A stretch of DNA of 64,000 nucleotides from Synechococcus sp. MU1642 (GTDB lineage Bacteria > Cyanobacteriota > Cyanobacteriia > PCC-6307 > Cyanobiaceae). Made by a program: the position numbers and the translations under genes. The notes beneath the pieces were generated by a model. It searched no databases. It was not told where the DNA came from and saw only the letters and a program-made list of their open reading frames with translations. Location of the stretch: contig NZ_VTKZ01000002.1 in NCBI RefSeq assembly GCF_020514115.1, positions 186,001 through 250,000 of the forward strand, written 5' to 3'. Shown piece after piece: positions 12,319 through 15,590 of the stretch. The first letter of the stretch is position 1, and every line of letters starts with the position of its first letter.

Positions 12319-12966
12319 TCAGCGGCGGCCAGTGCCGGTCACCACCAGATGCCTGGAGGCATCAATCTGAAGCCAACCTTCATCCCGCAACTGACCCAAC
12401 ACGCGGGTCACGGTCACCCGTGTGGTGCTGAGGGCGCTGGCGATCTCCTGATGGGTCAAGCGAAGGTTGAGCCGCTGCCCAGCCTCACAGGGTTCGCCGA
12501 AGTCCTTGGCGAGCAGTTCCAGGAAGCCCCGGACCCGTTCTTCAACGCGCCGCAGCCCCAGCAGGGCCAGGAGCGACTCCGCCTGGCGGTAGCGGGCGGC
12601 CATGGCCTTGGCGAAGCCAAGTGCCAACTGAGGAAAATGCTCCAGCTCCGCCAGATTGCAGCAGAGCAGATCGCAATCGGTGAGCGCTACAGCCTCGTAG
12701 GCCTCCACATTTGTGAATGCCGCACCAAAGGGTTTATTGGGACCCACAAGGCCAAGCACCAGTTCATCGCCATGCACCGACAGCGCACCCAGTTTCACCA
12801 TGCCGCGAACCACAAACCAAACGCTGTTCTTCAGCAGAGGAACGAAACTTCCCGAGGTGAAATGAAAAACATTTTTATTGTCGTAGCTGCTTTCAAGAAA
12901 CGCCTTGAAACCCAGAGCTGTTGAACTCAGATCAGCGGACGGAGTGGCAAGCATTTGGAATTCCAT
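12319..12966 (-). CDS. ptrA: Crp/Fnr-family regulator, PtrA-like
   Basis: A 215-residue regulator. The N-terminal beta-roll (FHFTSGSFVPLLKNSVWFVV, GALSVHGDELVLGLVG) resembles a cNMP-binding domain. The C-terminal winged helix has LTHQEIASALSTTRVTVTRV near residues 160-180. It lies next to two pstS genes. In marine Synechococcus a Crp-type activator, PtrA, adjoins pstS and controls part of the phosphate-stress response; the gene name here rests on that synteny and fold. The start is uncertain: ATG 12966 (MEFQML) is preferred over the longer frame to 13077. Confidence 0.75.
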   Translation of the reverse strand: MEFQMLATPSADLSSTALGFKAFLESSYDNKNVFHFTSGSFVPLLKNSVWFVVRGMVKLGALSVHGDELVLGLVGPNKPFGAAFTNVEAYEAVALTDCDLLCCNLAELEHFPQLALGFAKAMAARYRQAESLLALLGLRRVEERVRGFLELLAKDFGEPCEAGQRLNLRLTHQEIASALSTTRVTVTRVLGQLRDEGWLQIDASRHLVVTGTGRR

Positions 12967-13086
12967 GAATCCAGAAAAACTGTATTGAGGACAACATCGA
13001 TTCCCAACAAAGAGCTGGGAGAGATTTGGGGGAGATTGGGTTAAGAAGGCTCTAACGTTGATCGCAATTTGAATCATTCAACACAT

Positions 13087-13109
13087 AAAAAAAGGGCCTC
13101 GAGGGGCCC
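13087..13109 (-). terminator. Terminator downstream of pstS copy 1
   Basis: Read on the minus strand, a GC stem GGGCC/GGCCC is followed by seven T. It lies 40 bp past the pstS stop and upstream of the ptrA-like gene, so the regulator probably has its own promoter. Confidence 0.75.
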
Positions 13110-13148
13110 CCTTGGATGTTTGGTGTCTAAAACCAATTCAAACCAAGA

Positions 13149-14122
13149 TCACTGACCGATCTTTTTCACAGCGGCCTTGGATTTGGTCAGGATGTCGCCC
13201 TTGAGGGGAACGAAGCCCAGAAGAGGAGCTTTGTTCTGAGCAGCGTCGCTCAGCATGTAGTTAAAGGCATCCTGCACCACCTTGGTGTCCTTACCGTTGC
13301 CTGTTTTGTAGGCCAGCACCCAGGTGAGGGTTGCAATGGGGTAAGCAACCTTGGCAGTGGGGTTGGGGTTCTTGCCAGCCAGGTCCTCGTCCAGGCTGAT
13401 GCCGTTGAGGGCCTTCGCACCTGCAGCCACAGAGGGCTTGAGGAACTCACCGGACTTGTTCTGAAGCGCAGCGGCAACCACCTTGCCTTTGATGAACGAC
13501 TGGTTCACATAACCAATTGCGCCTTCACGGCTCTTGATCAGGCCAGCCACACCGGAGTTACCTTTGGCGCCCACTCCAGCGGGCCACTTGACGGATTTGC
13601 CGGTGCCGAGGGTCCAGGTCTTGGAGAAGGCCTCCATGGAGTTAGTGAAGGCCTGGTGGTACCCGAGCCATCAGAACGGTGCACCCAGGTGATGGTGCCG
13701 GGCGTGCAGCCGAGATCCTTCCAGTTCTTGATCATGCCCATGGCTACCTTCACGGCCTGCTCCTGGGTGAGCTTCAGGTCGCAACCGGGCTTGTTGTAAC
13801 CGAAGGCAATGGTGCCACCCACCATCGGGATCTGGACATGGCCACGGGTGACCTTGGCCATGTCCTTCTTCTTCATCGGATCATCCGATGCACCGAAGTT
13901 CACGGTCTGGTCGATGAAAGCTTTTCTACCGGAACCTGAACCAACGGCCTGGTAGTTGACCTGAGGACCGCCTGCCTTGGCCAGGTCAGCAAACCAACGC
14001 TGATAGATCTTGGCCGGGAACGAGGCGCCAGCTCCGTTCAGCTTGGGAGCTGCCGAAGCCGACACACCTGCCCCGAAGACAAGCAGGGACGAGGCGAGAA
14101 GGGCCTTTTGTGCAATGCGCAT
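13149..14122 (-). pseudogene. pstS: Phosphate-binding protein PstS, copy 1, frameshifted
   Basis: Periplasmic phosphate-binding protein split in two frames. Residues 1-155 run from MRIAQKALLASSLLVFGAGVSASA, split as a signal peptide with AxA-type end, to HRSDGSGTT. The second frame resumes at MEAFSKTWTLGTGKSVKWP and runs to the stop at 13149. Compared with copy 2 at the same codons (ACC ACC AAG GCC TTC), one A is missing near 13653, so a single-base deletion explains the break. All other conserved segments are intact, so a sequencing error or a very recent mutation is as likely as a long-dead gene. Confidence 0.85.
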
Positions 14123-14198
14123 CACGACAACCGAGAGAGGAAAGAGGCTGTAGCAACCAAGACCTAATCGGGACGCAAACCATCTGTCGTTATGCACC

Positions 14199-14216
14199 CC
14201 TTAACGATGGTTAAGG
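14199..14216. promoter_or_regulatory. CCTTAAC-GATG-GTTAAGG palindrome upstream of pstS copy 1
   Basis: A perfect 7-bp inverted repeat with a 4-bp centre, about 77 bp before the pstS start. On the gene strand it contains CTTAACCA, which matches one cyanobacterial Pho-box 8-mer (YTTAAYYW). A correctly spaced second direct repeat is not evident. It could be a PhoB half-site or an operator for another dimeric regulator. Binding is inferred. Confidence 0.4.
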
Positions 14217-14242
14217 ATCTATGAAACCCTCTTTAAACCATC

Positions 14243-14274
14243 AAAAAACCCCGGTTTGGCCATCCAAACCGGGG
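14243..14274 (-). terminator. Terminator downstream of pstS copy 2
   Basis: Read on the minus strand, a perfect 10-bp stem CCCCGGTTTG/CAAACCGGGG with a 6-nt loop is followed by six T. It separates the two pstS transcripts. Confidence 0.9.
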
Positions 14275-14304
14275 CGTTAAGTTCACCAAATCAAGGGGTC
14301 GCAT

Positions 14305-15309
14305 TCAAGGCTGAATGCCTGGCACCGCACTGCGGGATTTTTCAAGGATGCTGCCCCGGAGGGGCACAAAGCCCAGGGCCGCAGCACCATCCTGGGTGGA
14401 ATCGTCCAGCATGTAGTTCAAGACATCTTGAACGGCTTCAGCTTTGGCGCCATTGCCCTCGGCGTAGGCCAACACCCAGGTGAGCGTTGCGATGGGGTAT
14501 GCACCAGCGGCCGACGGGTTGGGGTTGCTGCCCGCCAGATGCTGATCAAGCTCAATGCCGTTAAGGGCTTTGGCACCAGCTTCCACGGAGGGTTTGAGGA
14601 ATTCACCGGATTTGTTCTGCACTGCAGCAGCCTGAACATTCCCCTTGATGTACGACTGATTCACGTAGCCGATTGCGCCAACCCGGTTGTCGATCACCCC
14701 GGCCACGCCGGAATTGCCCTTGGCACCCACGCCAACCGGCCACTTCACCGATTTGCCGCTACCGAGGGTCCAATCCGGTGAAAAGGTCTGCATCGAGTTG
14801 GTGAAGGCCTTGGTAGTGCCGGATCCATCCGAGCGATGCACCCAGGTGATCGTGCCCGCCTCACAACCGAGCTGCTTCCAATCGCTGATCGTGCCGATGG
14901 CCACGCCCACCGCCTGCTGCTGGGTGAGCTGAAGCTCGCAACCCGGCTTGTTGTATCCGAAAGCGATCGTTCCCCCCACCATGGGGATCTGGACCACCCC
15001 TCGGCTCACCTGCTTGCGGTCGGCCTCTTTGATCGGGTCATCCGAAGCGGCAAAATCCACGGTGCCATCGATGAAGGCTTTGCGGCCGGAACCGGAACCC
15101 ACCGCCTGATAGTTCACCTTGAGTCCGCCGGAGCCGGCGAGGTCGGCGAACCAGCTCTGGTAAACCTTGGCGGGGAAGGACGCTCCGGCTGCATTAAGGC
15201 TGGACACACTCGAACTACCACCACAGGCGGCGAGGCCAACAGCGAGAACGCTCAGGCTAGAAACAACCAGGGAACGATGTGCCAAAACCGTTTGTTTGAT
15301 TTGGTCCAT
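14305..15309 (-). CDS. pstS: Phosphate-binding lipoprotein PstS, copy 2
   Basis: A 334-residue intact PstS, the receptor that delivers phosphate to the PstCAB transporter. Its signal peptide ends in a lipobox (VGLAACGG, Cys near residue 29), so unlike copy 1 it is probably lipid-anchored. Phosphate-site segments are present: NAAGASFPAKVYQSW, GSGSGRKAFIDGTVDFAASD split over residues 76-95, and HRSDGSGTTKAF. It is very similar to copy 1 along its length, which indicates a tandem duplication. No pstCAB genes are in the window. Confidence 0.95.
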   Translation of the reverse strand: MDQIKQTVLAHRSLVVSSLSVLAVGLAACGGSSSVSSLNAAGASFPAKVYQSWFADLAGSGGLKVNYQAVGSGSGRKAFIDGTVDFAASDDPIKEADRKQVSRGVVQIPMVGGTIAFGYNKPGCELQLTQQQAVGVAIGTISDWKQLGCEAGTITWVHRSDGSGTTKAFTNSMQTFSPDWTLGSGKSVKWPVGVGAKGNSGVAGVIDNRVGAIGYVNQSYIKGNVQAAAVQNKSGEFLKPSVEAGAKALNGIELDQHLAGSNPNPSAAGAYPIATLTWVLAYAEGNGAKAEAVQDVLNYMLDDSTQDGAAALGFVPLRGSILEKSRSAVPGIQP

Positions 15310-15332: not shown

Positions 15333-15590
15333 TCAGGCGGTGTGCGCAACGGTGAGCCGCGTCGCTACTGAATAGCAGCGCAGCCAGCGGTTCACCCGTT
15401 TGCGGTGGGGGGCGGGGACCTCCCCAATCAACTGGCTGAGTTCATCAGCTCCCATGCGTCGCAGGGCGCGCACGTCAACATGCCAGAGCGCTTCGGCTTC
15501 ACGAATCAACCGCGCCCAGGTGCGCACCTGCTGCCACTGGCGCAGGCGGGAGCGAATCGGACGTTGATGGGGATGCAGAAATGCCGTCAT
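15333..15590 (-). CDS. 85-residue protein of unknown function
   Basis: A basic, helix-rich protein (LRQWQQVRTWARLIREAEAL near residues 16-35). Four tryptophans (W19, W25, W36 and one near 68) and a central ALRRMGADELSQLIGEV helix are its main features. It has no signal peptide or membrane segment. It lies upstream of pstS copy 2 on the same strand. I do not recognise the family; base use matches the neighbours. Confidence 0.5.
   Translation of the reverse strand: MTAFLHPHQRPIRSRLRQWQQVRTWARLIREAEALWHVDVRALRRMGADELSQLIGEVPAPHRKRVNRWLRCYSVATRLTVAHTA

Follow-up and report, generated by a model that had tools for sequence, protein, structure and literature searches.

Probable recent inactivation of a PstS1a-type pstS gene adjoining ptrA in Synechococcus sp. 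MU1642

We analyzed a stretch of 64,000 nucleotides (hereafter, the window; contig positions 186001-250000) of Synechococcus sp. MU1642, whose genome assembly amounts to 2.12 Mb in 22 contigs with an estimated completeness of 99.98%. Matches to the PtrA model and to named Synechococcus contigs agree with a marine Synechococcus-like genome. Two pstS genes lie side by side on the minus strand. The order of genes is an open reading frame of 85 amino acids (15590-15333), pstS copy 2 (15309-14305), pstS copy 1 (14122-13149), and ptrA (13077-12319). The features of the locus are as follows.

15333..15590, minus strand: the 85-aa reading frame (ORF85) directly 5′ of copy 2, conserved in the tandem relatives with low dN compared with dS.
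14305..15309, minus strand: copy 2, an intact PstS with a lipobox-like signal (TIGR00975, 222.8 bits; cut-off, 205).
14248..14275, minus strand: a terminator-like hairpin between copy 2 and copy 1 (12 pairs and a T tail), conserved in the tandem relatives.
14186..14215, minus strand: a Pho-box-like element 5′ of copy 1, kept in 10 of 10 tandem genomes.
13654..14122, minus strand: the 5′ part of copy 1, encoding 156 residues that begin with a Sec-like signal and end at GSGTT (TIGR00975 positions 1-143; 1ixh residues 3-142).
13149..13653, minus strand: the 3′ part of copy 1 in another frame, open from 13673 and with its first ATG at 13637 (TIGR00975 positions 144-314; 1ixh residues 159-305).
13538..13653, minus strand: the out-of-frame tail of copy 1 read past the break, 38 codons ending in a premature stop.
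13090..13113, minus strand: a terminator-like hairpin between copy 1 and ptrA (9 pairs and a T tail), conserved.
12319..13077, minus strand: ptrA, a Crp/Fnr-family phosphate-stress regulator (NF053664, 325.9 bits; cut-off, 300).

An initial annotation of this DNA had described two pstS genes, one of them frameshifted, beside a phosphate-stress regulator. The reading frames and the match to the PtrA model, which scored 326.4 bits in the genome-wide search, agree with that description. The conserved start of ptrA is probably located near 12954. ORF85 matched no family in Pfam or NCBIfam, and a sequence resembling it also precedes the single ptrA-linked pstS of three other genomes (G021, G007, and G025). 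The genome also has pstC, and a TIGR00975 search of the genome detected no PstS other than copies 1 and 2.

Copy 1 can be read from the ATG at 14122 to the motif HRSDGSGTT and leaves its frame near 13654. Past this point, the frame of the 5′ part encodes foreign residues until it meets a stop at 13538-13540; that of the 3′ part runs to 13149. At the break site, copy 1 is one base shorter than copy 2, as pointed out earlier, and the same shortfall was confirmed by comparison with the orthologue in all nine tandem relatives. The break sits in a two-base run; there is no long homopolymer. Copy 1 matched TIGR00975 in two halves, with 102.4 and 104.4 bits in the window and 100.7 and 107.1 bits in the genome search, leaving each single frame below the cut-off. 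Because the halves align separately to E. coli PstS (1ixh), the break is placed just after the phosphate-binding loop. The true start of copy 1 is probably the ATG at 14122, since the alternative GTG at 14197 falls within the conserved upstream element.

The phosphate ligands of E. coli PstS (T10, F11, S38, D56, R135, S139, G140, and T141), as listed in the accessible part of PMC10846223, were matched by eye in both copies, with the motifs GASFP, GSGSGRK, SDDP, and HRSDGSGTT; Ser replaces Thr10 in both. All ligand residues of copy 1 precede the break. The rest of copy 1 had been regarded as intact. The single-base nature of the break was upheld, but "intact" is too strong a word, as unusual replacements are also present.

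The two copies carry different export signals, which were read by eye: copy 1 has the Sec-like sequence MRIAQKALLASSLLVFGAGVSASAAP, and copy 2 has the lipobox-like sequence LAVGLAAC. Both types were found again in all 10 tandem genomes, in line with the earlier assignment of a putative Sec-type signal to copy 1 and a putative lipobox to copy 2. Copy 2 would be lipid-anchored. It comprises 334 aa when read from the ATG at 15309 and 326 aa from the TTG at 15285. In five of the nine tandem relatives, the ATG is out of frame or is followed by an in-frame stop, and the conserved start is probably the TTG.

The element upstream of copy 1, CTTAACC..GTTAA..CATAACGAC, is common to all 10 tandem genomes with small changes, and G021, G007, and G025 have a shorter form, CTTAACC...TAACGAC. 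The full pattern had a single match in the window, compared with none in 100 shuffles. When the pattern was reduced to its core, 31 of 164 loci matched, and among the loci listed all were pieces of tandem pstS loci. The cyanobacterial Pho box, which is bound by SphR, consists of CTTAACCT repeats according to the consensus given in the part of PMC1906773 available to us. The upstream region of copy 1 has a CTTAACC half-site and further TAA-containing repeats approximately 10-11 bases apart, but these repeats are imperfect. The element resembles the Pho box in sequence and is a candidate SphR site. For CC9605, CC9311, and CC9902, the same part of PMC1906773 gives no conserved tandem boxes. No Pho-box-like element was found 5′ of copy 2, where only the conserved ORF85 lies. 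With the conserved element confined to copy 1, the two copies are predicted to be controlled differently, in addition to having different export signals.

One SphR gene and one SphS gene, the latter named as the kinase adjoining SphR, are present and open in this genome. Loss of SphR or SphS was therefore rejected as a cause of the break. SphR itself occurs once each in 17 of 19 genomes. A PhoB-type group that is missing from this genome, G028, G013, and G004 had been taken for SphR; this was wrong, as its member in G024 is a different regulator, which adjoins a PPK2-like gene (named by eye). PhoX is absent from this genome and present in 6 of 19, showing no pattern with the break.

We searched 34 genomes of the genus, including that of MU1642, and obtained a match in 32. 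The same arrangement of copy 2 and copy 1 was found in nine other genomes (G024, G013, G002, G033, G008, G027, G022, G023, and G030). The initial annotation had proposed a comparison with related genomes; in all nine, copy 1 is a single open frame, and the break occurs in none. ptrA directly follows the tandem in eight of the nine, and in G027 the contig ends inside ptrA.

In a PstS tree of 47 rows, copy 2 grouped with the PstS proteins of G003, G001, G014, and G029 (support 99/96). Copy 1 grouped, at weaker support (85/90 and 81/47), with Sec-type PstS proteins from relatives that have a single copy. Judged from this tree, copies 1 and 2 are old paralogues placed side by side. They had previously been called duplicates, a view that the tree does not bear out, and a recent tandem duplication was rejected because the copies belong to two PstS clades. 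Cyanophages also possess PstS (97 phage records matched copy 2, with a best identity of 71.5%). A phage origin was rejected, as the five phage sequences in the tree fall outside the clades of both copies.

The locus is comparable with that of strain WH8102, for which the consulted part of PMC10846223 describes PstS1a beside ptrA, together with PstS1b and PstS2 and their affinities. Induction of pstS and ptrA by PhoBR is stated in the accessible portion of PMC11098088. In both WH8102 (SYNW1018-SYNW1019) and MU1642, pstS is located 5′ of ptrA, and the Sec-type family of copy 1 adjoins ptrA here and in the relatives. The differences are that a second, lipobox-type pstS precedes here and that the copy adjoining ptrA is broken. 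As given in the same part of PMC10846223, PstS1b of WH8102 has a KD of 0.44 µM and Thr at the position of E. coli T10. Copy 2 belongs to a clade distinct from that of copy 1 and groups there with the Thr-bearing lipobox-type PstS of G001, G003, and G014. However, copy 2 has Ser (GASFP) at this position and WH8102 PstS1b is unplaced in our tree, so that the relation is one of likeness only.

We consider that copy 1 is probably a recently inactivated pstS gene of the PstS1a type and that its loss is real. Loss of one base just past the GSGTT loop would result in a product of 194 residues, 156 native and 38 foreign. Such a product would lack approximately half of the binding protein and is not expected to attain a working fold. 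Copy 2, of the lipobox type, would then be the only PstS of the cell; it lacks a Pho-box-like element and lies behind the conserved small reading frame. We infer a loss of function of copy 1 and, with it, of the SphR-induced PstS.

The frequency of private codon changes was used to compare selection on the two copies. Copy 1 of MU1642 has 12 replacement and 5 silent changes, compared with 19 and 48 summed over the nine relatives (Fisher p = 0.002). Copy 2 has 2 replacement and 8 silent changes, similar to its relatives (p = 0.72). When six relatives were used, the counts for copy 1 were 12/11 against 17/56 (p = 0.017). The excess was not significant when compared with the other 35 local genes of MU1642 (177 replacement and 343 silent; p = 0.115). 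Among 36 local genes, copy 1 had the highest own-to-relatives ratio of dN/dS (1.67), with values of 0.78-1.44 for the other 35 and about 0.93-0.96 for copy 2. In the protein tree, the end branch of copy 1 was 0.084, compared with 0-0.026 for the other seven members of its clade, and that of copy 2 was 0. Some private changes of copy 1 strike positions that are constant in the relatives, such as V to H and G to V. Relaxed selection on copy 1, as read from these codon comparisons, is supported statistically but not proven. Copy 1 as a whole retains a low dN/dS (~0.11), and any loss must therefore be recent. Part of the replacement excess may belong to the region, through recombination, and not to the loss, because ptrA had the second highest ratio of the 36 genes (1.44) although its frame is open.

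The initial annotation had left recent loss and sequencing error as alternatives. Both were retained here, and the codon and branch comparisons with relatives favor loss. If the break were an error of sequencing or assembly, copy 1 would be intact in the living strain. We regard this as unlikely, although the assembly is a draft in 22 contigs, the break concerns a single base, and purifying selection is still visible over most of the copy 1 branch. One indel error would not produce additional private replacements, and these were found in copy 1 but not in copy 2; real loss is favored because copy 1 is not otherwise pristine. The site is also not a long homopolymer.

The rate of indels was surveyed against two genomes. 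In the comparison with the sister genome G028 (96 genes, 29,894 codons), three rows were obtained, and two were uncompensated one-base breaks in the MU1642 genome. The small number of genes broken in this way (2 of 96) speaks against sequencing error, but because such breaks do occur, indel errors at a low level are possible. The comparison with G024 (154 genes, 49,045 codons), in which third-position bias was used, listed 17 rows, which on reading were mostly effects of start assignment or alignment. Besides that of copy 1, the uncompensated break relative to G028 lies on the same contig in a CCCCC run, a point in favor of error. It affects an oxygenase-like reading frame (named by eye) at contig positions 175924-176201, outside the window, and may represent either a second pseudogene or an error of sequencing.

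G028 is 94.25% identical to MU1642 over the window; none of the six other genomes in this comparison exceeds 89.04%. Like MU1642 under the loss reading, G028 has a single PstS (G028:C1, about 629960-631000, minus strand), a point in favor of loss. The beginning of this gene resembles copy 2 and the remainder copy 1, and the switch falls in approximately the first 40 codons of the mature part. Its pstS has no Pho-box-like element. One base is deleted in its signal region, and TGG stands in place of the TTG start of the relatives. As aligned, the G028 gene is a fusion that joins the signal region of copy 2 to the body of copy 1 and drops the Pho box. Copy 1 of MU1642 is 79-89% identical to its partner in G028, compared with 89-97.5% for the flanks, which suggests that recombination probably acted at the pstS locus.

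Recombination could also replace decay as the explanation: if the pstS-ptrA stretch had been exchanged, the extra changes in copy 1 and ptrA would be imported and the break would be a separate and trivial event. This explanation is compatible with either real loss or error. It would account for the drop in identity with G028 from ~94% over the window to 79-89% in copy 1 and 89-94% in ptrA, for the fusion in G028, and for the dS of ptrA to G028 (0.26; median, 0.13). However, copy 1 of MU1642 clusters with its tandem relatives at a support of 99/97 and its identity to the G024 counterpart (91%) is near background, which makes an imported tract more likely in G028. We consider an exchange in MU1642 improbable as the source of the changes. 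The dS of ptrA, twice the median, may in itself reflect recombination.

Very little speaks for recoding, in which ribosome slippage near the break would still give a full-length PstS or the 3′ half would be made from an internal start. The two frames do overlap from ~13670 to 13538 with an ATG at 13637 in the 3′ frame, but no slip heptamer of the form XXXYYYZ occurs in 13531-13700, on which ground programmed slippage was rejected. The break is absent from all nine relatives, which argues against conserved recoding. The two halves of the periplasmic binding protein fold are interleaved, and this also counts against halves made separately.

Following the reading of copy 1 as a real loss, both sister genomes appear, from two draft assemblies, to have converged on a single PstS with no visible Pho box. 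A tentative and rather doubtful extension is that the lineages of MU1642 and G028 independently gave up the Pho-box-driven Sec-type PstS, one by the frame break and the other by fusion, switching phosphate capture from inducible to constitutive. Both would then rely on one lipobox-type PstS with no visible Pho box, with SphR/SphS and ptrA intact.

Duplicated genes tend to turn into pseudogenes, as mentioned in the part of PMC10846223 consulted, and the present finding is an ordinary pseudogene case, a modest gene decay and no new kind of system. The words tandem and frameshift are absent from the main text of PMC10846223 as far as it was accessible, and a literature search by title returned nothing on a broken pstS in Synechococcus. 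The finding is of moderate interest for phosphorus ecology, where the number of PstS copies carried by marine Synechococcus is taken to reflect adaptation to the supply of phosphorus. Should the break prove to be an error of sequencing, the truncated gene should not be taken for niche adaptation. With a real loss, the genome would retain only one PstS, having lost the copy that bears the conserved starvation element while keeping the regulators. Combined with the fusion in G028, this would provide a natural experiment on whether the two PstS types can replace each other and on the role of ptrA without its partner.
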